From assembly GCF_001426435.1 (NCBI RefSeq), contig NZ_LMER01000014.1, positions 349,257 to 413,256 on the forward strand: a stretch of DNA of 64,000 nucleotides, in the 5' to 3' direction. Origin of the DNA: Angustibacter sp. Root456 (GTDB lineage: Bacteria; Actinomycetota; Actinomycetes; Actinomycetales; Angustibacteraceae). The notes beneath the pieces were generated by a model. That model saw nothing but the letters and a program-made list of their open reading frames with translations. It was not told the DNA's origin and searched no databases. A program made the position numbers and the translations under genes. Numbering within the stretch: the stretch's first letter is position 1; each line of letters begins with the position of its first letter. Positions 7,093 to 43,108 of the stretch are shown here, piece by piece.

Positions 7093-7854
7093 TCAGCCCT
7101 GCTTCCGGTCGTAGCGGTGCGACAGCGCGTCCGACGTGATGGTCGCGGTCGACACGAAGTTGACGATCGTCTTGGTGCCGACCTTGGCCCTCGCCGAGGT
7201 CGAGAAGTAGGCGTCGGACATCCCGGGCTGACGCGCGAGCACGTCGAGCCAGGTGGCGACGTCCGGGTGGTCGAGCGCAGATCCCTGCACCGTGAGGACG
7301 CCGATGCCCGTGGCCGGAGCGTTCGCCGCGGGGGACGACGGCGTGGCCGGCGCCGCCGGCGTGGTCGGGGCCGCCGAGGTGGTGCCACCCGTGGGTGCTG
7401 CCGGAGCGGCCGCTGTCGAGCCGGAACCGCTCAGCGCGAGGCTCACGTTCGTGAACCAGACGTTCTTCGGCAGGGTCAACGAGAAGTTGTTGAGGGTCCG
7501 GAACCACTCGACGTCGTTGGCCATGGCCGTCGAGCGCGCCGTCTCGGCGGCGTCGATCGCCGCAATGGTGCGCGGCACGTCGGCGTACTTGGCCTGCTGC
7601 GCCTGCAGGCGCACGGTGTCGGTCTTGGTCGCGGCCAGCTCGTCGGCGGCGTGGTTCTTGCTCTGCACCTGCAGGGCGTAGACCCCCGCCACCGCCAGGA
7701 CGACGACGCCGAGGCCCGCGGCCAGACCGGCCTGGGTGCGCCGCAGGCGGCGCGCCTCCTCGATCTCGGACGGCAGCAGGTTGACCCGCGCCACCCGCTG
7801 GAGAACGGGCGTGACGACCGTCTGCACGGTCTGGCTCTGCGCCACCTGGCTCAT
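7093..7854 (-). CDS. pilN: Type IV pilus assembly protein PilN
   Basis: 253 aa. The cytoplasmic N-terminus contains VNLLP, the conserved peptide that docks in the PilM groove. A membrane helix spans about residues 42-63, followed by a short coiled coil. An unusual Ala/Pro/Thr-rich linker of roughly 40 residues splits the outer domain. The ATG overlaps the pilM stop as ATGA, so PilM and PilN are coupled. Confidence 0.88.
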   Translation of the reverse strand: MSQVAQSQTVQTVVTPVLQRVARVNLLPSEIEEARRLRRTQAGLAAGLGVVVLAVAGVYALQVQSKNHAADELAATKTDTVRLQAQQAKYADVPRTIAAIDAAETARSTAMANDVEWFRTLNNFSLTLPKNVWFTNVSLALSGSGSTAAAPAAPTGGTTSAAPTTPAAPATPSSPAANAPATGIGVLTVQGSALDHPDVATWLDVLARQPGMSDAYFSTSARAKVGTKTIVNFVSTATITSDALSHRYDRKQG

Positions 7855-8909
7855 CGGTCAGCTCCCAACGCGAGACCCACCGGCACGGCGACCAGCGGCT
7901 GGACGAAGTTGATCTGCTCGTCGCTGAGGCCGGTGCGGCCCACGGCGACGCTGCTGAGCGGGTTGCCGACGGTGACGGGCAGCCGCGTCGCCGCCTCGAG
8001 CCGGTCGGCCAGGCCGTGCAGACGCGAGCCGCCACCGCTCAGCACGAGCCGCTGCAGGCGCGCGCCAGCCGGCGCGGACGAGGAGAAGTAGTCGAGCGAG
8101 CTGCGGACCTCGTCGACGAAGGCGGCCGCCGTGCTCTCGAGCGCGCGACCGGCGGAGAGCTGCTGCTCGTGGTCGATACCGCTGAGGTTGGGGTTCTGCT
8201 TCAGCGCCTCGGCCTGCGCGCGGGTCATGCCGAGGGTGTCGGCGACGGCGTCCGTGACGTCCTGCCCACCCATGAGCAGGATGCGCACGAACAGCGGCGC
8301 ACCCGCACGGTGGACGACGATGTTGCTCACCCGCGAGCCGACGTCCACGAGCGCGACGGTGTCGGCGTCAGCCGCGCCGAAGGCACCGAGGGAGCGCAGG
8401 ACGGCGAACGGCGTGAGGTCGACTGATGTGACCCGCAGGCCGGCCTTCTGGGCCGCGTTGACGTTCGACAGCACCATGTCGCGGACGGCGGCCACGAGCA
8501 GGCCCCGCAGCATGCGCGGCTGGCCCGGCTCGCTCACCTCCTCGACGGCGTGGAAGTCGAGTACTGCCTGCTCCACGGGCATGGGCAGGAAGTCCTGCAC
8601 CTGGAACGGCAGCGAGGCCCTCAGCTCACGCTCAGGCAGCGCGGGGAGGTCGACCTGGCGCACGATGACGCGCTGGTTGGCCACTCCCAGCACGACCTGC
8701 TTGTGCGAGAAGCCGGTGTGCGACCACAGCTGCTTGAGTGCTGCGGCAACGGCGTGGGCGTCGGCGACCTCACCGTCACGCACTGCGCCGTCGGGCAGCG
8801 CGACCTGCCCGAACTTCTCGAGCGTCACACCGCGCTTGCCGAACGACAGCTCAGCAGCGCGCACGCCCGACGTCCCGATGTCGAGACCGATCGCGGACCG
8901 TCCAGCCAC
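7851..8909 (-). CDS. pilM: Type IV pilus actin-like ATPase PilM
   Basis: Cytoplasmic actin-fold protein that binds the PilN tail and forms the pilus alignment complex. With a GTG start at 8909 it is 352 aa, the family norm. GGAAGGGG sits 7 nt upstream; the frame can be opened 20 codons further but would read through that ribosome site. Nucleotide-binding motifs are visible: GLDIGTSGVRAAEL (phosphate 1), VALVDVGSR (phosphate 2) and LVLSGGGSRLHGL (adenosine). It heads the pilM-pilN-pilO-PilP-like operon. Confidence 0.92.
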   Translation of the reverse strand: MAGRSAIGLDIGTSGVRAAELSFGKRGVTLEKFGQVALPDGAVRDGEVADAHAVAAALKQLWSHTGFSHKQVVLGVANQRVIVRQVDLPALPERELRASLPFQVQDFLPMPVEQAVLDFHAVEEVSEPGQPRMLRGLLVAAVRDMVLSNVNAAQKAGLRVTSVDLTPFAVLRSLGAFGAADADTVALVDVGSRVSNIVVHRAGAPLFVRILLMGGQDVTDAVADTLGMTRAQAEALKQNPNLSGIDHEQQLSAGRALESTAAAFVDEVRSSLDYFSSSAPAGARLQRLVLSGGGSRLHGLADRLEAATRLPVTVGNPLSSVAVGRTGLSDEQINFVQPLVAVPVGLALGADR

Positions 8910-8975
8910 CTCGTAACCCCTTCCATGCGGCACAGCCGCGTGGCGGCCCTCCTGGTGGGGCCGTGTCACAGGGGT

Positions 8976-9003
8976 GATCGGTGCGGTTGAGCGGCTACTT
9001 GAG
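8976..9003 (-). promoter_or_regulatory. Sigma-28-type promoter of the pilM operon
   Basis: CTCAAG (9003-8998), 16 nt, then CCGATC (8981-8976), i.e. ACCGATC after 15 nt. It matches the element shared by the other pilus promoters here, with A for the first G. The predicted leader to the pilM GTG is about 60 nt. The -35 lies at the end of the prepilin peptidase gene. Confidence 0.65.
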
Positions 9004-11960: not shown

Positions 11961-12659
11961 TCACGTGTTCGCGGGGTTGTTGTTGATACGGGCGTTCGCG
12001 TTCGGCAGGGAGACGCGGGTGATGACCGTGCTCGCCGGGACCTCGTTACCGGACTTGACCGAGAGCGCGATGTCGACCGAGTTGACGTCCGGCAGCGTCG
12101 TCGCGGTCAGCGGCGTCGACATGCCAGCAGGCTGCGTGACGCTGTAGTAGACGAACAGCGGCTTGGCCGAGCTGTACACGATCTTGCGGGCCACGATGCG
12201 CGTCTTGACGACGCAGCCGGGCGAGCCCACGATGCAGTAGGTGTACGCGCCGCTCGCGTCGATGCCGTTCGGCGGCTGCACCGACTCGGTGAGGTCGCCG
12301 CTCGAACTCAGCACGTAGCTGACCTTGCTCGGGCCGTTGACGTTGGCGGGGTTGTAGATGTTGGCGTAGAAGCTGACCCGGTTCCAGTCGGCCGACAGGA
12401 ACGCGGACAGGTCGGTGTTACCGCCGCCGATCTGCGAGGGCAGCACAGCGGTGCGGATGGTCTTCGTCATGGTCTCGACAGCCGCCTTGGCCTGCTGGGC
12501 CTGATCGAGCCGGTTCACGTTGCCGCGCACGGTCTTCTGCGACTGGATCAGCGCCCCGAAGGCCAGCGAGGTGATCACGCCGAGGATGCTCATGACGGCG
12601 AGCATCTCCGCGAGGGTGAAGCCACCTTCGGACCCCCGCAGCCCGCGCAGCCGCCTCAC
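11961..12659 (-). CDS. Minor pilin, PilW/PulJ-like
   Basis: 232 aa. Short basic leader, cut site G-F with the full motif GGFTLAEML (Glu5 present), then a membrane helix and an extracellular domain with two cysteines in a short loop (YCIVGSPGC). The GTG at 12659 overlaps the previous gene's stop as GTGA; a longer open frame upstream is the previous gene in another frame. Minor pilins of this class prime fibre assembly together with PilV and PilX types, and all three are encoded here in order. Confidence 0.82.
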   Translation of the reverse strand: MRRLRGLRGSEGGFTLAEMLAVMSILGVITSLAFGALIQSQKTVRGNVNRLDQAQQAKAAVETMTKTIRTAVLPSQIGGGNTDLSAFLSADWNRVSFYANIYNPANVNGPSKVSYVLSSSGDLTESVQPPNGIDASGAYTYCIVGSPGCVVKTRIVARKIVYSSAKPLFVYYSVTQPAGMSTPLTATTLPDVNSVDIALSVKSGNEVPASTVITRVSLPNANARINNNPANT

Positions 12660-14002
12660 GGCGTCACCGACAGCGTCGTGACCTGCTGCGGGCTCGTCGC
12701 GTTGACCGACAGCTGGGGCCAGGCTGACGAGGAGGTGAGGCCGTCTGCCCGCAGCTCCCACGTGCCCGCCGGAAGCGAGGTCTTCAGCCGACCCGAGGAG
12801 TCCGTGACCCCGAGCGTCAGCGTCGCGTCCGTGGTGCACCCCGAGGTGCTGGTGGCGTACCCGCGGATCGTCGCGTTCTGCACCGGCAGCAGCGAGCTGT
12901 TGACCACTGTGGCCTCCACGGGCGTCAGGTAGTGCGAGATGGTGCCCGTGCCACCCGGGGCCACCACCGTGGCGGGCTGGCGCGACGTGCCGGCGCTCGA
13001 GGGATCGGACATGCGGCACGCGCCCGGCCACGAGACGTAGCCCGCTGGCGCGGGCCAGAGGCTGCCGATGGTGGTGGACGGTCCGGCTCCGGGGAAGGCC
13101 TTCGTGCCGCCGACGATGTCGGTGCTGTAGATGGTGATCGGCACCGTCTGGCTCGGAAGCGCGAACCCGCCGGCTGTCGTCAGCTGCGCCTGCAGCGCCC
13201 CCGCCTGGTCGTAGGCGATCGACGTGCTCTTCATCTTGCCCTGCTCGAGCGAGAGCGACCCCGTCGCCGTGGCGTTGAAGGTGTTCGACACCCACCCGCC
13301 CACCGAGACCGTGGCGGTGAAGCTGGACGGCGCGGCTGGGAGGCCGGAGAACTGCACGACGGCGCAACCGTCGTCGGCTGTCGTCGCGGTCGCCGACATC
13401 GCGCCGTCCGAGACCGTCACCGGCACACCCGATCGTGCTTGCCCGTCTGCACCGACGATCTTGACCGCGGCGTACCCGTCGGTGCCGTTCACCTGTGCCT
13501 TGCGCGGGGTGAGGATCGTGTTGTTCTCCACCGGCTTCGTGGAGCCCATTCGAGGCCACGAGACCTTCACGTTGACCGCCAGCACGGGGTAGGTGACGGC
13601 ACTGCCGCCATCGCACGCGCTGGAGCCGACGCCCGAGGGCATCCAGGTGGCGGACCGAGTCACCGTGAAGGGCAGGCCGTCGATCGTGAGCGGGTTGCCT
13701 GCGACCTGGCTGGCGAGCGGGTGGGGATTCGTCACCACGCCGGCGTCGCCGATGAGGGCCGGACCGTCGATGTTCTTGTCGTTGAACTCCTGGCGCACGA
13801 TCTCGAGCTCGCGGGCCGCGAGGTTCGCCGCCTGGATCCGGTTGCGGTCGAGGCGGGTCGAGTTGGTCGCGCTCTGGATGCCGTACGCCACGGCCGTGGC
13901 GATGATCGAGAAGACGACCATGGCGAAGAGCATCTCGACCATGCCGAAGCCTGCGTCGAAGTCACCCCGCACGCGGTCGCGCCACCGTCGACGCAGATCC
14001 AT
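12656..14002 (-). CDS. Minor pilin, PilV/PulI-like, with Ig-like extension
   Basis: 448 aa, much longer than the usual 150-200 for PilV. An 18-residue leader ends DAG, then FGMVEML with Glu5 and a hydrophobic helix. The extension has beta-rich segments resembling carboxypeptidase-regulatory or Ig-like repeats (VTVSDGAMSATATTADDG; VTDSSGRLKTSLPAGTWELRADG). Such domains are common in surface adhesins. First gene of the minor-pilin operon, behind its own sigma-28-type promoter. I chose ATG 14002; a GTG four codons upstream is possible. Confidence 0.8.
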   Translation of the reverse strand: MDLRRRWRDRVRGDFDAGFGMVEMLFAMVVFSIIATAVAYGIQSATNSTRLDRNRIQAANLAARELEIVRQEFNDKNIDGPALIGDAGVVTNPHPLASQVAGNPLTIDGLPFTVTRSATWMPSGVGSSACDGGSAVTYPVLAVNVKVSWPRMGSTKPVENNTILTPRKAQVNGTDGYAAVKIVGADGQARSGVPVTVSDGAMSATATTADDGCAVVQFSGLPAAPSSFTATVSVGGWVSNTFNATATGSLSLEQGKMKSTSIAYDQAGALQAQLTTAGGFALPSQTVPITIYSTDIVGGTKAFPGAGPSTTIGSLWPAPAGYVSWPGACRMSDPSSAGTSRQPATVVAPGGTGTISHYLTPVEATVVNSSLLPVQNATIRGYATSTSGCTTDATLTLGVTDSSGRLKTSLPAGTWELRADGLTSSSAWPQLSVNATSPQQVTTLSVTP

Positions 14003-14056
14003 GCCACCACCCACTCAGCCGTGCCGGCGGCTTCTGCCACCGGTCGCTCCTGTCAC

Positions 14057-14084
14057 TGTCGGCGTGCGCAGCCGCGATCTTGAG
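14057..14084 (-). promoter_or_regulatory. Sigma-28-type promoter of the minor-pilin operon
   Basis: CTCAAG (14084-14079), 15 nt, GCCGACA (14063-14057). The predicted leader is about 48 nt to the PilV-like ATG. Confidence 0.7.
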
Positions 14085-14803: not shown

Positions 14804-15244
14804 TCAGCTGCAGGCAACGCCCTTGGCCTGCAGGCCACCCTGGTCGCTGTCGTAGTACCAGTCGCCCGTACCCTTGGTGTTCACGGCCTTGAGGCAGTAT
14901 GTCCCAGCCGCCTGGCCGCCCACGAGCGAGATCGTGTTGCCGGTCGAAACCTTCGCCGTGCTGGTGACAGGCGGCGTTCCGCCGTCGGTCAGCGTCACCG
15001 TGGTGGAGGACTGCGACAGGGCGCTGGGGTACGCCTGAGAGTCGGTGTAGAAGGTCTCCATCTCGTTGGCGACCGAGCGAAGGTCCGACTTCATCGAGGT
15101 GTCGACGGCCTTCTTGCGCTGGTTCAGGAACACCGGGATGGCGATCGCGGCGAGGATGCCGATGATGATCATGACGACCAGGAGCTCGATCAGCGTGAAG
15201 CCGCTGTCCTTCTCCTCCGCCGCCTTGCGAATGCGAGCGAGCAT
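14804..15244 (-). CDS. pilA: Type IV major pilin paralogue 2
   Basis: 146 aa. Same 15-residue leader as pilA1 with Glu for Gln at position 10, the same FTLIELL helix, then divergence after about residue 65. The C-terminal domain again has a late cysteine pair (YCLKA...ACS). The shared leader and helix with different surface domains indicate a tandem duplication. Which paralogue forms the fibre cannot be told from sequence. Confidence 0.93.
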   Translation of the reverse strand: MLARIRKAAEEKDSGFTLIELLVVMIIIGILAAIAIPVFLNQRKKAVDTSMKSDLRSVANEMETFYTDSQAYPSALSQSSTTVTLTDGGTPPVTSTAKVSTGNTISLVGGQAAGTYCLKAVNTKGTGDWYYDSDQGGLQAKGVACS

Positions 15245-15310: not shown

Positions 15311-15318
15311 GATAGAGC

Positions 15319-15344
15319 ATCGGCCGCACGATCAAGGTCTTGAG
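15319..15344 (-). promoter_or_regulatory. Sigma-28-type promoter of pilA2
   Basis: CTCAAG (15344-15339), 14 nt, GCCGAT (15324-15319). Same spacing and leader length as the pilA1 promoter although the spacer bases differ, which argues for selection on the two boxes. Confidence 0.72.
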
Positions 15345-16637: not shown

Positions 16638-17879
16638 TCAGATCCGGCCGAGAAGGCGGTTGTAGTCCTCGACGTGGTGGCACTTCTCCAGACCGTGCTC
16701 GTACGTGATCTGGTTGGTGCGCACCAGCTCGGCGAGGTGCTGGTCCATCGTGTGCATGCCGTGCTGGGCGCCTGCCTGCATGGCGGAGTAGATCTGGTGC
16801 GTCTTTCCCTCGCGGACGAGGTTGCGGATCGCGGGGGTCGCCACCATGACCTCGGTGGCGACGACCCGGCCCTTGCCGTCGCGCGTCTTGCACAGGGTCT
16901 GGCAGACGACGCCCTGGATCGCGCCGGCGAGCTGCACGCGCACCTGCTGCTGCTGCTCGGACGGGAAGACGTCGATGACGCGGTCGATCGTCTGAGCGGC
17001 GTCCTGCGTGTGCAGGGTCGCGAAGACGAGGTGGCCGGTCTCTGCCGCGGTGAGGGCGACCGAGATCGTCTCGAGGTCACGCATCTCACCGACGAGGATG
17101 ATGTCGGGGTCCTGGCGCAGCGCGTGCTTGAGGGCGTTGGAGAAGGACTTGGTGTCCTCCCCCACCTCGCGCTGGTTGACCACGCAGTTCTTGTGGCGGT
17201 GCAGGAACTCGATCGGGTCCTCGACCGTCATGATGTGCTCGTGGCGGTTACGGTTCGCCAGGTCGATGATGCCCGCGAGCGTCGTCGACTTTCCCGAACC
17301 GGTCGGGCCCGTGACCAGCACGAGACCGCGCGGCAGCCCGGCGAAGTTGTTGACGGCCGGCGGGATGCCCAGCGCCTCGAGCGGCTTGATCTCGTACGGA
17401 ATGAGACGGAACGCCGCACCCATCGCCTCGCGCTGGCGGTAGACGTTGACGCGGAAGCGCGCACGCCCCGGCACGGCGTAGGCGAAGTCGAGCTCGAGGT
17501 CGTTCTCGAAGCGCTCCCGCTGCTTCTGCGACAGCATCGCGTAGATGGCGCGCTGCAGCACCGGCGGCGTCAGGGCCGGGTGCTCGCCGAGCGGGCGCAG
17601 CTCACCGCGCACGCGGATCATCGGCGGGGCGCCAGAGGTGATGTGCAGGTCGCTCGCGCCGGTGGCGATCATGTCGATCAACAGCTGGTTAATCTGCAGG
17701 TCGGCCTCGGTCGTCTGCTCGGTCGTCGCCCGGCGGTAGGCGCCGGCGTCCGCCTCCGGCGGCTGCACGAGCGTCGCGGCGGGCGCGGGCAGCGAGCCCG
17801 AGGTCACGGGCGCGTAGCCGTCCTGGGCACCGGCGAAGGTGAACTGCTCCGGCACGTACGGCTGTCCGGTGGTGCTCAC
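16638..17879 (-). CDS. pilT: Type IV pilus retraction ATPase PilT
   Basis: Hexameric motor that depolymerises pili and drives twitching. 413 aa, with about 50 extra N-terminal residues compared with Gram-negative PilT. Walker A GPTGSGKST, the aspartate box and Walker B (DPDIILVGEMRDLETI), the His box (FATLHTQDAAQTIDRVID) and the retraction-specific C-terminal AIRNLVREGKTHQIYSAMQ are all present. The start is GTG with GGGAGC upstream. The AIRNL motif separates it from PilB and PilU-like ATPases. Confidence 0.96.
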   Translation of the reverse strand: MSTTGQPYVPEQFTFAGAQDGYAPVTSGSLPAPAATLVQPPEADAGAYRRATTEQTTEADLQINQLLIDMIATGASDLHITSGAPPMIRVRGELRPLGEHPALTPPVLQRAIYAMLSQKQRERFENDLELDFAYAVPGRARFRVNVYRQREAMGAAFRLIPYEIKPLEALGIPPAVNNFAGLPRGLVLVTGPTGSGKSTTLAGIIDLANRNRHEHIMTVEDPIEFLHRHKNCVVNQREVGEDTKSFSNALKHALRQDPDIILVGEMRDLETISVALTAAETGHLVFATLHTQDAAQTIDRVIDVFPSEQQQQVRVQLAGAIQGVVCQTLCKTRDGKGRVVATEVMVATPAIRNLVREGKTHQIYSAMQAGAQHGMHTMDQHLAELVRTNQITYEHGLEKCHHVEDYNRLLGRI

Positions 17880-17940
17880 GGCGCTCCCTGTCGACGCGCT
17901 CGGCGCAGGATCGGCCGAGCTGGAGATCTTCTCTGGGCGC

Positions 17941-17968
17941 TATCGGCACGCCCAGCGAGGCCCTTGAG
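17941..17968 (-). promoter_or_regulatory. Sigma-28-type promoter of pilTC
   Basis: CTCAAG (17968-17963), 15 nt, GCCGATA (17947-17941): one of the best matches in the window. The leader is about 55 nt. Confidence 0.75.
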
Positions 17969-18005: not shown

Positions 18006-18075
18006 CCTGGCAAATTCCCCGGAACTTGTGCGCCTGGGCCGTCCCAGGCGTACAAGTTCCGGGGAATTTGCCAGG
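18006..18075. terminator. 33-bp near-perfect hairpin between pilB and pilT
   Basis: 18006-18038 is complementary to 18043-18075 over 33 bp, with only one G-U wobble (18030/18051) and a 4-nt loop. It begins 8 bases past the pilB stop and ends before the pilT promoter. It probably stops pilB transcription, but it is far longer than needed and has no T-tract, so it could also be a mobile or processing element. Confidence 0.7.
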
Positions 18076-18083
18076 AGGGCGCG

Positions 18084-19748
18084 TCAGACGACGACGCGCA
18101 GGACCTCTTCGATCGAGGTGACGCCCTCGTAGACCTTGATCCAGCCGTCCATGCGCAGCGTGGTCATGCCCTCCGAGCGCGCGGTCTCGCCGATCACCGC
18201 AGCCGACACCCGGTCGACGGTGTGCCGCTCGATCGTCTCGCTCACCGCCATGACCTCGTGCAGCGCCACCCGGCCCTTGTAGCCGGTCTTCGAGCAGGCC
18301 GAGCAGCCCACCGGCCGGTACAGCACCGGCAGCTGCTCCCCCGGCGACCACGGGAAGCCCACCTTCACTAGGTCGTCCGCCTCGGGGGTGTACGCCTCCT
18401 TGCAGCGCGGGCACAGCCGGCGCGTGAGGCGCTGAGCCAGCACGCAGTCCAGTGCCGAGCCCACGAGGAACGGCTCGATCCCCATCTCGGTCAGCCGCGT
18501 CACCGCGGACGGCGCGTCGTTCGTGTGCAGCGTGGCCAGCACCAGGTGGCCGGTGAGTGCCGCCTCGACGGCGATCTGCGCCGTCTCGTGGTCGCGGATC
18601 TCACCGATGAGGACGACGTCGGGGTCCGAGCGCAGGATCGAGCGCAGCGCCGCCGCGAAGGTCAGGCCGGCCTTGTTGTTGACCTGCACCTGGTTAATGC
18701 CCGGCAGCCGGTACTCGACCGGGTCCTCGACCGTGATGACGTTGACCTCGGGCTTGCTGACGATGTTCAGCGTCGCGTACAGGGTCGTCGACTTGCCCGA
18801 GCCGGTCGGGCCGGTCACGAGGATCATCCCGTAGGGCTTCTGGAAGCTCTCGGAGAAGCGCGCGTAGTTGCCCTCGGAGAAGCCGAGGTCGCCGAGCGTC
18901 AGGCGCGCCGTCGAGTTGTCGAGGATGCGCATGACGACCTTCTCGCCCCACACCGTCGGCAGCGTCGCTACGCGCAGGTCGATCTTCTTGCCGTTCGCGT
19001 TCACCGACAGGCGCCCGTCCTGCGGGATCCGCCGCTCGGCGATGTTGATGTCGGCCATGATCTTCAGCCGCGAGATCACGCCACTCTGGATCGCCTTGGG
19101 CGAGCGCATGACCTCGTGCAGCACGCCGTCGATGCGGTAGCGCACGCGCAGGTCGGTCTCGGTCGGCTCGAGGTGGATGTCGGAGGCGCGGTCCTGGATC
19201 GCCTGCGTGATCAGCAGGTTGACGTACTTGACGATCGGCGCGTCCTCGGTGATCTCCTTCACCTTGGACAGGTCCTCGTCGTCGTCGGTGACGTCGAGGG
19301 CAGAGGTGATGTCGTCCATGTCCGCGTCGGCGCGGTAGTACCGGTCGATCGCGGCGATGACGTCGGCGCGCGTCGCGACGACCGGACGCACCTCCATACC
19401 GGTCATCGAGCGGATGTCGTCGAGGGCGAAGACGTTGCCGGGGTCGGCCATCGCGACGAGCAGCTTGCCGTCGTCGGAGTAGCCGATGGGCAGGCAGTTG
19501 TGGCGGCGGACGACGGCCCCGGGCACGCGCCCGGTGGCCGAGCCGTCGACCTGGTACTCCTGCAGGTCGACGAACGGCAGCCCGATCTGCTGCGCGAGCG
19601 CGGCGACCAGCTGGGTCTCGGTGAGCACCCCCTGGTCGACCAGGACGCGCCCGAGACTGCGGCCCACTCGCTGGTGCTCGTCGAAGGCAGCGCTCAGCTG
19701 CCCCTCGTCGACCAAGCCGTCAGCGAGCAGGATCTCGGCAAGCTGCAT
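18084..19748 (-). CDS. pilB: Type IV pilus extension ATPase PilB
   Basis: Hexameric motor for pilus polymerisation. 554 aa. N-terminal GspE/MshEN domain (about 1-150), then the ATPase core with Walker A GPTGSGKST, Walker B SDPDVVLIGEIRDHET, the His box ATLHTNDAPSAVTRL, and the zinc-binding tetracysteine (LCPRC and GCSAC). MshEN domains in some PilB proteins bind c-di-GMP; a copy is present here, but ligand binding cannot be judged by eye. ATG 19748 is chosen because the promoter lies just upstream; a frame open further would overlap it. Confidence 0.96.
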   Translation of the reverse strand: MQLAEILLADGLVDEGQLSAAFDEHQRVGRSLGRVLVDQGVLTETQLVAALAQQIGLPFVDLQEYQVDGSATGRVPGAVVRRHNCLPIGYSDDGKLLVAMADPGNVFALDDIRSMTGMEVRPVVATRADVIAAIDRYYRADADMDDITSALDVTDDDEDLSKVKEITEDAPIVKYVNLLITQAIQDRASDIHLEPTETDLRVRYRIDGVLHEVMRSPKAIQSGVISRLKIMADINIAERRIPQDGRLSVNANGKKIDLRVATLPTVWGEKVVMRILDNSTARLTLGDLGFSEGNYARFSESFQKPYGMILVTGPTGSGKSTTLYATLNIVSKPEVNVITVEDPVEYRLPGINQVQVNNKAGLTFAAALRSILRSDPDVVLIGEIRDHETAQIAVEAALTGHLVLATLHTNDAPSAVTRLTEMGIEPFLVGSALDCVLAQRLTRRLCPRCKEAYTPEADDLVKVGFPWSPGEQLPVLYRPVGCSACSKTGYKGRVALHEVMAVSETIERHTVDRVSAAVIGETARSEGMTTLRMDGWIKVYEGVTSIEEVLRVVV

Positions 19749-19792: not shown

Positions 19793-20644
19793 CTATCGGC
19801 CCGAGGCCCTGCCTTCTTGAGCCAGGGTCGCCTCGCCGGCCGTGCGCATCGCCTCGACATCCGGCTCGAGCCCCGTCATCAGGCGCACCTGCGCCACCGC
19901 CTGGTGCAGCAACATGCCGAAGCCGCCGACCGCCCGACCGCCGCGCGCCGTCCAGCGCGAGGCCGCCGGTGTGGGCCACGGGTCGTACGTGACATCGAGC
20001 AGCAACCCGGGTGTCACGGTGGCGGCATCGACGGCCGCGACCACCTCCCCGCTACCTGACACCGGCACCGTGGTGACCACGACATCCGCCTCGGCGAGCG
20101 CAGCAGGTGCGGCGTCCCACGGCTCAAGCCGCACCCGCACCCCCACGGCTGCACCGGTCACCGACACCTCGGCCGCGCGCTGCACCGACCGGACGACGAC
20201 CCGTGGGCTCGCGCAGCCCAGCTGGGCCAGGGCGGCCACCGCGGAGGCAGCCGTCGCGCCCCCACCGAGCACCACGGCCCGCTCGGCCCGAGCGACGCCG
20301 CTCTCGGTGAGTGCGCGCACGAGACCCTCGACGTCGGTGTTGTCGCCCACCAGGCCGTCGGCGGTGAACAGCACCGTGTTGACCGAGCCGGTCGCCACCG
20401 CCTGCGGGGACTGGCGGCGCAGCAGCGGCTGGACGAGCCGCTTCAGCGGCATCGTCAGTGACAACCCCGCCCACGAGCCGTCGCACGCCTCCACGAACCG
20501 GCGCAGCGCGGCCTCGTCGCCGACCTCCACCGCGTCGTAGCGCCAGTCGGTCAGCCCGAGCGAGGCGTACGCCGCGCGATGCAGCACCGGCGACAGCGAG
20601 TGCGCGATCGGGCTGCCGAGCACGGCCGCGCGCCGCACCGTCAT
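19793..20644 (-). CDS. aroE: Shikimate dehydrogenase
   Basis: NADP-dependent reduction of 3-dehydroshikimate. 283 aa. Substrate residues in SPIAHSLSP, the catalytic Lys in LTMPLKRL, Asp in GDNTDVEG and the nucleotide loop VVLGGGATAASAV are all seen. The ATG starts 7 bases after the mltG stop; an upstream open frame is mltG in another frame. The rest of the pathway (aroC, K, B) lies 14 kb downstream on the same strand, past the pilus cluster. Confidence 0.93.
   Translation of the reverse strand: MTVRRAAVLGSPIAHSLSPVLHRAAYASLGLTDWRYDAVEVGDEAALRRFVEACDGSWAGLSLTMPLKRLVQPLLRRQSPQAVATGSVNTVLFTADGLVGDNTDVEGLVRALTESGVARAERAVVLGGGATAASAVAALAQLGCASPRVVVRSVQRAAEVSVTGAAVGVRVRLEPWDAAPAALAEADVVVTTVPVSGSGEVVAAVDAATVTPGLLLDVTYDPWPTPAASRWTARGGRAVGGFGMLLHQAVAQVRLMTGLEPDVEAMRTAGEATLAQEGRASGR
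19794..19821 (-). promoter_or_regulatory. Sigma-28-type promoter of pilB
   Basis: CTCAAG (19821-19816), 15 nt, GCCGATA (19800-19794). The -10 overlaps the aroE stop codon (TAG, 19795-19793). The leader is about 40 nt. Confidence 0.75.
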
Positions 20645-32759: not shown

Positions 32760-32786
32760 CTCGAGAACCGCCCCGGCCAGCCGATA
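32760..32786 (+). promoter_or_regulatory. Sigma-28-type promoter of the PilZ gene
   Basis: CTCGAG (32760-32765), 14 nt, GCCGATA (32780-32786). The -10 is identical to those of pilB and pilT; the -35 differs at one base. The leader is about 45 nt. It is divergent from aspS. Confidence 0.65.
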
Positions 32787-32837
32787 GGCAGCGCGACGGG
32801 TGCGTCGGGGCATCGCAACGAGCAGGAGGGAGCCCGC

Positions 32838-33521
32838 ATGGAGATCACCATCGCCGCCGGGTCGACCCTCACGCTGGTCGCCGGGCCGGACCGCGTCACG
32901 CTCAAGACGCTGGCCGAGACCACGGTGCACGCGGCCGGTGCCGTCGAGGACTCCGCCGGTGCACGGGTGCCCGTCATGGGATCGAGCGAGGCGCTCGCGG
33001 TGGGTCCGGGCACGGTGGACGTCCCCACGAGCCAGGGTGTGGTCAGCCTGCGGGCTCGTGTGGTCACCGACGGTGCGGGCATGTCGCTGCACCTCGGCAC
33101 GGCCGCTCCGGTGACCCAGCGCCGTCAGGAGGTGCGGGGCGACGTCGAGCTGCCGCTGAGCGTCACCATCCCCGCCTCCGCGGACGACGCGACCCCGCGG
33201 GTCGTGTCCGGGCGCACGCGCAACATCTCAGCCGGCGGGCTGCTCGCCACCCTCGACCTCAACACCGCCGGCAGCGTCCGCCCGGGGATGGTCGTGCCGG
33301 TGCTCGTCAGCTGGCCCGAGGGTGAGCCGTTGCAGGTGCAGCTTCAGGTGATCGAGGTCGCGAACTTCACGCTGCGCGGCTCGTTCGTGGGCGTCGAGCA
33401 CCGGCAGACCGAGCGCATCGCGCGCCTGGTGTTCGCCAAGGAGCGAGAACGGCTGGCCGCGCGCCGGCGTCAGGCCGAGCAGCGGTCGGTGACCGTGCCG
33501 GGTCGCACGCGCAGCTGGTGA
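32838..33521 (+). CDS. PilZ-domain c-di-GMP receptor, YcgR-like
   Basis: 227 aa. An N-terminal beta domain (1-95) resembles the YcgR flagellar-brake N-domain. The C-terminal PilZ domain starts with [14 protein letters not shown] (the R-x-x-x-R ligand motif; here RRQEVR) and has [14 protein letters not shown], the D/N-x-S-x-x-G motif with Asn in place of Asp. AGGAGGGAG lies before the ATG. It stands alone between aspS and an aldo/keto reductase, under a pilus-type promoter. It may brake or redirect motility when c-di-GMP rises; that is inferred. Confidence 0.88.
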
Positions 33522-39096: not shown

Positions 39097-39126
39097 CCGG
39101 GTCGTCAGCGCAGGCTGACGACCCGG
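39097..39126. terminator. Bidirectional hairpin between the DUF349 and GGDEF genes
   Basis: A 13-bp stem (CCGGGTCGTCAGC / GCTGACGACCCGG) with a 4-nt loop. The right arm codes for the last residues of the GGDEF protein. It lies between convergent genes. Confidence 0.75.
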
Positions 39127-40637
39127 TTGCGGCCCGCGTCCTTGGCCGCGTAGAGCCGGCGGTCAGCGGCGCCCAGCAGCAGGAGCCGCTCGACGCCGTC
39201 GTCGGGCGCCGTGGCGCAGCCGATGCTCACCGTCACCGGGAGCCCGCAGGTCGTGCCGTCCCAGTCGATGTCCTCGACCGCTCGGCGCAGGTCCTCCAGA
39301 CGCTCCTCGGCGCTCGCCCGGTCGTGATCCGGCAGCGCCACGAGGAACTCTTCGCCGCCCATCCGCGCACTGAACCCGCCCGCCGCGTGACGCGTGGCGC
39401 CGTCCAGCACCGCGGCGACCCGGCGCAGCACCTCGTCTCCGGCCTCGTGGGAGCAGGTGTCGTTGATCCGCTTGAACAGGTCGAGGTCGATGAACGCCAC
39501 CGCGAGCGAGCGGCCCTCGGCCAGCTGAGTGTCGATGAGCTCGCTCAGGTGCTCGTCGACGTACCGGCGGTTGCGCAGCTTGGTGAGCGGGTCGCGGTAC
39601 GACATCTCGCGGAACCGCTCGCTCTCGGCGCGAGCCTGCGAGGTCTGGAAGATGGCCTGCATCATCCGGGCGCGCGCCTCCTGCTCGACGACGCGTTGGG
39701 CGAGTAGTCGTTCGTGGTACTGCTTGTACTGTTCGAAGGCCCGCTGGTAGTCCCCGGTGGCCGCGGAGAGCTCAGCCCACTCGCTGAGGGCCCGGATCTC
39801 GACGGCGCCCAGATGCTGCCCCTCGCAGACGGCGGCCACCCGAGCCAGGGTCTGGCGTGCGCCGTCCAGGTCGCCGCGCTGGCGCCGCACCCTGGCCAGC
39901 GACAGCAGCGTCTCGGACGCGTCCTCGGGCGCGACGTCGTCGGTGAACTCGACCATCGCGAAGAGCCGCTCGGCCTCCTCCAGCCGGCCCGCGGCGGCGT
40001 AGATGCTGGCCGCGGTGTCGAGGGTGTGCAGCGGCAGCTCCCCGGTGACCTCGAGGGTCGCCGCGACCAGCTCGTCGGCCAGCAGCACCGCCTCGTCGAG
40101 TCGGGCGTCCTCGTACAGCGTGTACGTGCGGTTGTTCAGGGCCAGCAGGTACAGCTCGTCGTGGTCGCACGCGCGCGCGAGCTGCTCGGCCCGCAGGTAC
40201 TCCTCGAGGGCCTCGTCGATCGAGCCGCTCAGCGCCAGGGCGTCACCCAGGCAGACCAGGTGGTCGGCGAGCACCGTCGGGTGCGTTTCCGCCGGCAGGA
40301 CGTTGACGGCTGCTACCGCGTGCTCGAGGCTCGCCGTGGACTCCCCGGCCCGCCGCAGCAGGACGCCGAGCACGCGCTCGGCGCGCGCGTGCAGGTACGC
40401 CTCCCCGCGGTCGACCGCCCACTGGCGGATCTCGCGCATCTGGGTCGCGCCGTCCTCGAGCAGGCCCCGACGGGTGCTGACGGCCGCGTCGACGAGCTCG
40501 ACACGGCGCACCACCACCGCGTCGGCGTGCGCCGCGTGCTGCTCCAGCCACTGCTGGGCGGCCACGGCCACCGCGTCGTACGAGCCGACGGTCAGCTCGA
40601 GATCACGCAGCCACGGGGGCTCGGACGGGTCAGGCAC
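39105..40637 (-). CDS. Diguanylate cyclase with N-terminal TPR region
   Basis: 510 aa, no membrane helix, so cytoplasmic. Residues about 100-320 form helical TPR-like repeats (for example ALEEYLRAEQLARACDHDELYLLALNN). The C-terminal GGDEF domain (about 335-510) begins YRDPLTKLRNRRYVDEHL, has metal residues in FIDLDLFKRIND, and an intact active site MGGEEF. The inhibitory RxxD five residues before it is missing. I moved the start to GTG 40637: GAGGAG lies 6 nt upstream, and the frame above it runs through a sigma-28-type promoter. Enzymatic activity is likely but not proven. Confidence 0.9.
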   Translation of the reverse strand: MPDPSEPPWLRDLELTVGSYDAVAVAAQQWLEQHAAHADAVVVRRVELVDAAVSTRRGLLEDGATQMREIRQWAVDRGEAYLHARAERVLGVLLRRAGESTASLEHAVAAVNVLPAETHPTVLADHLVCLGDALALSGSIDEALEEYLRAEQLARACDHDELYLLALNNRTYTLYEDARLDEAVLLADELVAATLEVTGELPLHTLDTAASIYAAAGRLEEAERLFAMVEFTDDVAPEDASETLLSLARVRRQRGDLDGARQTLARVAAVCEGQHLGAVEIRALSEWAELSAATGDYQRAFEQYKQYHERLLAQRVVEQEARARMMQAIFQTSQARAESERFREMSYRDPLTKLRNRRYVDEHLSELIDTQLAEGRSLAVAFIDLDLFKRINDTCSHEAGDEVLRRVAAVLDGATRHAAGGFSARMGGEEFLVALPDHDRASAEERLEDLRRAVEDIDWDGTTCGLPVTVSIGCATAPDDGVERLLLLGAADRRLYAAKDAGRNRVVSLR

Positions 40638-40669
40638 TGCGGGCTCCTCGGCGACGGCGGACACCCGTC

Positions 40670-40697
40670 TTATCGGCAGACCATTACGCACAGTTTA
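40670..40697 (-). promoter_or_regulatory. WhiG/FliA-type promoter of the diguanylate cyclase gene
   Basis: TAAA (40697-40694), 16 nt, GCCGATAA (40677-40670), the full sigma-28/WhiG consensus. Transcription would start near 40663, giving a leader of about 26 nt that holds GAGGAG just before the GTG at 40637. Confidence 0.8.
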
Positions 40698-40732
40698 CTT
40701 TTGCTTTACTGAAAGTAATGGCGCCGCGCCGC

Positions 40733-43108
40733 TCACCCCGTGGGTGTCTGGCGACCACCGGAGAGCCGGTAGGCGTCGAACACGCCATCGACCCTCCGCA
40801 CGCTGTTGAGCACGTGGCCCAGGTGACCGGGGTCGCCCATCTCGAAGGCGAAACGGGAGATGGCCAGGCGGTCGCGGGACGTCTGCACGCTCGCCGACAG
40901 GATGTTGACGTGTGCGTCGGACAGCACGCGCGTGATGTCCGACAGCAACCGCGACCGGTCGAGCGCCTCCACCTGGATCTGCACGAGGAACACCGTGGCG
41001 GACGACGGCGCCCACTCGACCTCCACGACCCGGTCGGGCTGCGCGCGCAGCCCCGCGACGTTCGAGCAGTCCTCGCGGTGCACCGAGACGCCGCTGCCCC
41101 GCGTCACGAACCCCATGATCGGGTCGCCCGGCACGGGGGTGCAGCAGCGCGCGAGCTTGACCCACAGGTCGTCGACGCCCTTGACGACGACGCCCGGGTC
41201 ACCGCTGCGCGGGCGGCGCGAGACGCGGCTCGGCAAAGTCGCCTCGGCGAGGTCCTCGCTCGCGCCCTCCTCGCCGCCGAGGGACTGCACGAGCTTGGCG
41301 ACGACGCTCTGCGCCGACACGTGGCTCTCGCCGATCGCGGCGTACAGGCCGTCGATGTCGGGGTACCGCAGCTCGTCGGCGATGGCGATGAGCGCCTCGT
41401 GGGACATCAGGCGCTGGATCGGCAGGTGCTGCTTGCGCATCACCTTCGCGATCTCGTCCTTGCCGCGGTCGATCGCCTCTTCGCGGCGCTCCTTGCTGAA
41501 CCACTGACGGATCTTGTTGCGCGCGCGGGGGCTTCTGACGAAGCTCAACCAGTCGCGGCTCGGCCCCGCGCTCGCGGCCTTGGAGGTGAGCACCTCGACC
41601 ACGTCGCCGTTCTCCAGCGTGCTCTCGAGCGGCACGAGGCGGCCGTTGACCCGGCCACCGATGGTGCGGTGACCCACCTCGGTGTGCACCGCGTAGGCGA
41701 AGTCGACGGTCGTGGACCCGGCCGGCAACGCCACCACGTCACCCTTGGGGGTGAAGACATAGACCTCACGCGCGTTGATCTCGAAGCGCAGCGAGTCGAG
41801 GAACTCCCCCGGGTCGGCCGTCTCCCGCTGCCAGTCGAGCAGCTGACGCAGCCAGGCCATGTCGTTGGTCGCGCCGGTGTCGCCCTCCACGACCCCGGAG
41901 GCCGACGGCTGCTCCTTGTACTTCCAGTGCGCGGCGACGCCGAACTCTGCGCGCCGGTGCATCGTGAAGGTGCGGATCTGGATCTCGACCGGCTTGCCGC
42001 TCGGCCCGATGACCGTCGTGTGCAACGACTGGTACATGTTGAACTTGGGCATCGCGATGTAGTCCTTGAACCGGCCAGGCACCGGGTTCCACCGCGCGTG
42101 CAAGGCGCCGAGCGCCGCGTAGCAGTCGCGCACGGACTCCACCAGCACGCGCACGCCCACGAGGTCGTAGATGTCCTCGAAGTCGCGACCGCGCACGATC
42201 ATCTTCTGGTAGATCGAGTAGTAGTGCTTCGGTCGGCCGGTCACCGTGGCCTTGAGCTTGGCGCTGCGCAGGTCGGCGGTGACCTGCTCGCGCACCTTCG
42301 CGAGGTACTCCTCGCGGGCTGGTGCCCGTTCGCTCACGAGCCGGACGATCTCGTCGTAGACCTTGGGGTACAACGTGGCGAACGAGAGGTCCTCGAGCTC
42401 CCACTTGATGGTGTTCATGCCGAGCCGGTGGGCCAGCGGAGCGTAGATCTCGAGCGTCTCGCGGGCCTTGCGCTGAGCGGACTCGACGCTGACGTAGCGC
42501 CACGTGCGCGCGTTGTGCAGCCGGTCGGCGAGCTTGATCACGAGCACGCGGATGTCGCGCGCCATGGCCACGACCATCTTGCGCACGGTCTCGGCCTGGG
42601 CAGCCTCGCCGTAGGTGACCTTGTCGAGCTTGGTGACGCCGTCGACGAGCATCGCGATCTCGTCGCCGAAGTCGGCTCGCAGCCGGTCGAGCGTGTAGTC
42701 GGTGTCCTCGACGGTGTCGTGCAACAGCGCAGCGGCGAGGGTGGCCTCGGGCATGCCCAGGTCGGCCAGGATGGTGGCGACGGCCAGCGGGTGGGTGATG
42801 TAGGGGTCGCCGCTCTTGCGACGCTGGCCCTCGTGGGCCCGCTCGGCAGTGGCGTACGCCCGCTCGATCAGGCCGACGTCGGCCTTGGGGTGCGACGTGC
42901 GCACCGACCGCAGCAGTGGCTCGAGCACCGGGTTGCCCGGCGAGCGCTGCCCACCGAGCCGGTGCAACCGGGCCCGTACGCGGCTCGACGTGGGAATCGG
43001 GATGGTCTGCTCGACGTCACGGCCGGATCCACGGGGCTCGCGCTCCGAGGCAGCGGCGCCCGCAGCAGAGCCGTCGTCGGCCGCGACGCTGCGCACGGGA
43101 TCTGCCAC
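40733..43108 (-). CDS. rel: Bifunctional (p)ppGpp synthetase/hydrolase
   Basis: 791 aa. HD hydrolase with [10 protein letters not shown], synthetase with [23 protein letters not shown], a TGS domain ([22 protein letters not shown]), a helical and zinc-finger region ([29 protein letters not shown]), and a C-terminal ACT domain. It controls the stringent response. The start is GTG with GAGGAGGGG upstream. It lies in the conserved secF-apt-rel order. Confidence 0.97.

Follow-up and report, generated by a model that had tools for sequence, protein, structure and literature searches.

A flagellar-type promoter at a diguanylate cyclase gene and a putative c-di-GMP-gated WhiG–RsiG regulon of type IV pili and c-di-GMP enzymes

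The cyclase gene, its start codon and its promoter

The window, which is the whole 64,000-nt stretch of DNA analysed here, carries a diguanylate cyclase gene downstream of relA/spoT, together with several pilus genes and a PilZ-domain gene (Table 1). The cyclase protein matches PF00990 with an E value of 3e-36 and TPR_12 in its N-terminal half, and it belongs to the GGDEF-domain family with RMGGEEF, DLDLFKRIND and VSIG all intact. Reading of the protein sequence found no RxxD inhibitory site. The longest open reading frame begins at GTG 40691, and the original prediction moved the start to the GTG at 40637-40635, preceded by a ribosome-binding site, GAGGAG, at 6 nt (40649-40644), which is present as described. 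The only close orthologue found, in the sister genome G001, has 51% identity and the same relA–cyclase–DUF349 gene order. It begins at the same GTG (VPRSDEPAWIRELE in one protein and VPDPSEPPWLRDLE in the other), and it has an in-frame stop codon 12 codons upstream with no start codon in between. Conserved protein sequence before residue 1 was sought in this alignment and was not found, and the corrected start is therefore supported. Scanning the named genome collection for orthologues of the cyclase and of RsiG gave no confirmed relative. A second internal GTG, at 40664, was absent from the original prediction.

Upstream of the gene, TAAA (40697-40694) and GCCGATAA (40677-40670) are separated by a 16-nt spacer and match in 12 of 12 bases, which places the site in the flagellar-type (FliA/SigD/WhiG) promoter class, characterized by TAAA and GCCGATAA at a spacing of about 15-16 nt. 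TAAA-N14..17-GCCGATAA has a single exact copy in the 3.84-Mb genome, at the cyclase, compared with 0 for the reversed pattern, and shuffling of the window gave 0.00 expected copies. This agrees with the perfect WhiG/FliA-type promoter that had been predicted. The promoter had also been placed within the longest reading frame; this is correct for the -10 element and most of the spacer, but the -35 element lies 3-6 nt upstream of the frame. The direct orthologue in G001 has a weak match, TCAA-N15-GCCGACTC, with 3 mismatches, and the DNA of the two orthologous upstream regions aligns poorly. Conservation of the promoter of this gene between the sister species is only suggestive. An imperfect dyad surrounds the -35 element, and its inner arms, TTACTTT and AAAGTAA, are perfect. 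It is A+T-rich within a high-G+C genome and may be an operator for an unspecified regulator; it is not conserved in G001. The relA gene, encoded on the same strand, has its stop codon about 35 nt before the cyclase -35 element, and no terminator or housekeeping sigma-70 promoter was found between the two genes.

Table 1. Positions of the genes, promoter elements and motif matches
Feature	Position	Strand	Remark
Diguanylate cyclase, TPR-like N-terminal half and GGDEF	39105..40637	(-)	Start GTG 40637, kept in G001 orthologue
Ribosome-binding site GAGGAG, 6 nt before start codon	40644..40649	(-)	Orthologue: GGGAG at 6 nt
Predicted transcription start, 7th-8th base after -10	40662..40663	(-)	Inferred from leaderless-gene spacing
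-10 element GCCGATAA	40670..40677	(-)	Motif recovered by de novo search before GGDEF genes
-35 element TAAA	40694..40697	(-)	Exact pattern match
Imperfect dyad around -35, possible operator	40681..40721	(.)	14-nt arms 79% complementary
relA/spoT, upstream neighbour	40733..43108	(-)	relA–DGC–DUF349 order kept in G001
1-mismatch site (N15), 50 nt upstream of PilZ-domain gene (32838-33521)	32761..32787	(+)
TCAA-N16-GCCGATAG, 0 mismatches, 44 nt upstream of pilB (18084-19748)	19793..19820	(-)
TCAA-N16-GCCGATAG, 0 mismatches, 60 nt upstream of pilT (16638-17879)	17940..17967	(-)	Conserved in G001
2-mismatch site (N15) upstream of pilin gene 14804-15244	15317..15343	(-)	Same in G001
1-mismatch site upstream of minor-pilin-like gene 12656-13972	14056..14083	(-)	Same in G001
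2-mismatch site upstream of pilM (7851-8909)	8975..9002	(-)
rsiG and GGDEF gene regions	L064 6558-14328; L163 11431-15727

The promoter motif at c-di-GMP, pilus and flagellar genes

The pattern TMAA-N16-GCCGATAR with at most one mismatch occurs at 27 sites in the whole genome (G000), compared with 6 for the reversed pattern. Five sites match it in full, those of fliM, pilT, pilB, the cyclase gene and a gene for a predicted secreted protein. In counts that allow up to two mismatches, N15 or N16 spacing and a position within 150 nt upstream, a site precedes 14 of 37 GGDEF genes, compared with 10 of the 297 remaining genes on those stretches (Fisher p 3e-9). Gene starts were called for this purpose by a simple program based on codon usage, and individual ones may be wrong. 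The ten non-GGDEF genes include five for pili, three for flagella and one PilZ gene. De novo motif discovery in the sequences upstream of 69 GGDEF genes from the two sister species returned cTcAAg-N14-TGCCGATa at an occupancy of about 0.65, with a log-likelihood of 290 versus about 102 for shuffles. A motif learned from G001 only ranked the GGDEF genes of G000 above other genes (AUC 0.70, p 3e-5); pilus and flagellar genes accounted for many of the highest-ranked matches outside the GGDEF group. In the smaller single-genome sets of G004, G009, G063 and G041, with 6-20 sequences each, de novo searches did not arrive at the motif, although it is apparent from the mismatch counts in G004 and G009.

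The coupling of the cyclase to the pilus regulon, also part of the original prediction, is supported by the 0-mismatch sites of pilB and pilT and by sites with 1-2 mismatches at three more pilus genes, several of which are kept in G001. Both sister species have the sites at the pilT, pilin, minor pilin and fliM genes. An MshEN domain (PF05157) is present in PilB; domains of this type are known to bind c-di-GMP, and the pilus motor may respond to the product of the cyclase. A long, nearly perfect inverted repeat (18009-18072) with a 20-nt exact arm, GGCAAATTCCCCGGAACTTG, at each end lies between pilT and pilB, immediately before the pilT promoter; one arm is found again beside another GGDEF gene (L064 4577-4596). 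The secreted protein mentioned above (666 residues; L241 3498-5533, G000:C20:683498) has its full-match site 7 nt upstream and could be a surface protein belonging to this regulon.

A site was found before 14 of 32 GGDEF genes in G001 (0.3 in shuffles), 7 of 14 in G004 (family f2) and 7 of 20 in G009 (family f7). The corresponding number was 0 of 6 in G041, which lacks WhiG, and 1 of 7 in G018, which apparently lacks FliA. Enrichment in G063 was weak (1/20 and 2/9 in two counts). This 4.6-Mb actinobacterial genome has about 100 GGDEF domain matches, and its enrichment is weaker than that of other WhiG genomes.

The distance from the -10 element to the called start was bimodal in 44 GGDEF genes of G000, G001, G009 and G018, with 10 genes at 6-7 nt and the rest mostly at 28-80 nt. 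The group at 6-7 nt is best read as a predicted class of leaderless mRNAs from flagellar-type promoters. Judged by this spacing, transcription would begin at the 7th-8th base past the -10 element, and therefore at 40662-40663 for the cyclase, with GTG 40664 just outside the transcript. The predicted leader of 25-26 nt is consistent with the 26 nt proposed originally.

Sigma factors and alternative readings of the promoter

WhiG is encoded at C18:230456-231214, near rpsB, tsf and xerC. It scores 419 bits against the WhiG equivalog NF004935 (cut-off 343) and 384 bits against the WhiG chain of 6pfj. RsiG is encoded at C20:75756-76328 (PF22802, 97 bits), and its twin E-x3-S-x2-R-x3-Q-x3-D c-di-GMP motifs are intact in G000 (EADLSYARRLLQGRMD and ESSVSESRHRVQGVMD), as are two in G001. 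The rsiG gene is physically linked to GGDEF genes, with three within 3-7 kb in G000 and at least one in G001. Among 149 genomes of the order, 35 of the 39 genomes with WhiG also have RsiG (p 4e-26, ignoring relatedness), and the ratio of the exact promoter pattern to its reversed control is 29:1 in the other genomes that have WhiG, compared with 35:22 in those that lack it; these genomes are related and differ in G+C, and the ratios are indicative rather than independent tests.

WhiG is the favoured and most likely sigma factor for the cyclase promoter. FliA and WhiG share this promoter class (PMC8325347) and nearly all WhiG genomes examined also have FliA, so that WhiG is not proven. A FliA-like paralogue is encoded at C1:22790-23713, beside fliC and fliD, and fliM has a 0-mismatch site that is conserved in G001. 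If FliA read the promoter, the cyclase would be a late motility gene without direct RsiG feedback. This is unlikely, because the enrichment of the pattern follows WhiG and RsiG, and because the flagellin promoter beside FliA reads CTCA-N16-GCCGAACT, with a different -35 element, although the G001 version is degenerate and the flagellin comparison is therefore not decisive. Four genomes with FliA and without WhiG (G019, G107, G068 and G136) give no exact matches, and the first three hold 0-1 GGDEF genes.

Two other readings concern the cyclase transcript itself. Read-through from relA is possible, and therefore the strict dependence of the enzyme on an active sigma factor, as stated in the original prediction, is not supported. 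That read-through is the main source of cyclase expression, with the consensus match accidental or of minor effect, appears improbable. The close relA stop codon on the same strand, the lack of a terminator-like structure between the genes and the weak promoter of the G001 orthologue are consistent with it, but the match is complete, unique in the genome and at a position typical of the regulon, and the same motif class lies upstream of many other GGDEF genes. There is similarly little chance that transcription begins at GTG 40664, with leaderless translation adding nine residues (VSAVAEEPA) to the protein. This codon lies 5 nt past the -10 element and 10 of 44 GGDEF genes have a predicted leaderless start 6-7 nt past it, but 5 nt is one or two short of this class. 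The orthologue has a Shine–Dalgarno-led start at the position of 40637, behind its upstream stop codon, and shows no counterpart of the nine residues.

A proposed c-di-GMP-gated circuit and its relation to known systems

Taken together, it is probable that a c-di-GMP-gated WhiG–RsiG switch drives the expression of type IV pili and of enzymes for c-di-GMP turnover, including this cyclase, in a negative feedback loop. The cyclase would be transcribed from a working sigma-28 family promoter, most likely read by WhiG, into an mRNA with the short leader described above, and translation from GTG 40637 would give a soluble TPR-GGDEF diguanylate cyclase. If RsiG acts as it does in Streptomyces and Rubrobacter (PMC8325347), its c-di-GMP-bound form would hold WhiG, and low c-di-GMP would free it. 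Free WhiG would then activate the operons for type IV pili, fliM, the gene of the PilZ protein and about 40% or more of the genes that encode GGDEF and GGDEF-EAL proteins, with the cyclase gene among them. The c-di-GMP made by the cyclase could act on local effectors, namely PilZ and the MshEN domain of PilB, and could also re-arm RsiG and end the response, resulting in a self-limiting pulse or a homeostat. The feedback loop is suggested by the presence of RsiG as a c-di-GMP-dependent anti-sigma factor. The original prediction had overlooked RsiG, as well as the presence of both WhiG and FliA and the sharing of the promoter by many genes for c-di-GMP enzymes. Because the cyclase has no RxxD site, RsiG feedback could be its main limit. 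Of the 15 GGDEF proteins with a good site in G000, 8 also carry an EAL domain; the sign of feedback of the whole regulon is therefore not fixed, and the overall effect of the network may be to dampen or shape the signal, not just to increase it.

The proposed circuit most closely resembles that of Rubrobacter radiotolerans, in which (RsiG)2-(c-di-GMP)2-WhiG is linked to the same promoter class and to type IV pilus and DGC/PDE targets (PMC8325347). In that organism, starts were mapped for 12 WhiG promoters, 3 in the pilus cluster and 5 before DGC/PDE genes, and its authors already suggested potential feedback loops (PMC8325347). Rubrobacter RsiG is a single-motif homodimer, whereas RsiG here is of the twin-motif type, and flagellar genes and FliA are present. 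The site here is also found at about 40% or more of the GGDEF genes, at a PilZ gene and at fliM, and a predicted leaderless class occurs. The twin-motif lineage, the scale and the predicted leaderless class are new compared with Rubrobacter, and the variant extends over several families of the order.

WhiG and RsiG here are similar to those of Streptomyces in the WhiG equivalog (NF004935), the rpsB-tsf-xerC neighbourhood and the twin-motif RsiG (PF22802). Streptomyces whiG presumably lies near rpsB-tsf. WhiG–RsiG controls spore differentiation in Streptomyces, whereas the sites here are at pilus, flagellar and c-di-GMP genes. Streptomyces BldD is likewise a c-di-GMP-controlled regulator that acts on cyclase genes (cited in PMC8325347), but BldD is a c-di-GMP-activated repressor, whereas control here would be exerted through a c-di-GMP-inhibited sigma factor. 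In Actinoplanes missouriensis, the genes for type IV pili and flagella are directed by flagellar sigma factors that resemble WhiG (PMC8325347). Actinoplanes lacks RsiG (PMC8325347) and therefore RsiG-type c-di-GMP gating.

A broader proposal, in which we place somewhat less than even confidence, is that the primary role of WhiG, over a wide range of Actinomycetales that have twin-motif RsiG, is to serve as the sigma factor for the c-di-GMP network itself. It would transcribe type IV pilus genes and roughly a third to a half of the genes for c-di-GMP synthesis and breakdown, the latter often into leaderless mRNAs, and c-di-GMP would switch it off; sporulation in Streptomyces would be a derived use of this homeostat. 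If this is true, a switch recognized at two distant points, Streptomyces sporulation and Rubrobacter pili, becomes a general layout in which the enzymes that determine the c-di-GMP level are produced under the sigma factor that c-di-GMP gates. Direct tests of the ancestral function of WhiG would become possible, and the two-mismatch promoter rule could be applied to other WhiG-bearing genomes. In families f8 and f9 of the order, WhiG-like sigma factors mostly score below the curated cut-off and occur with weak or no RsiG matches, and they possibly represent a diverged version of the switch.
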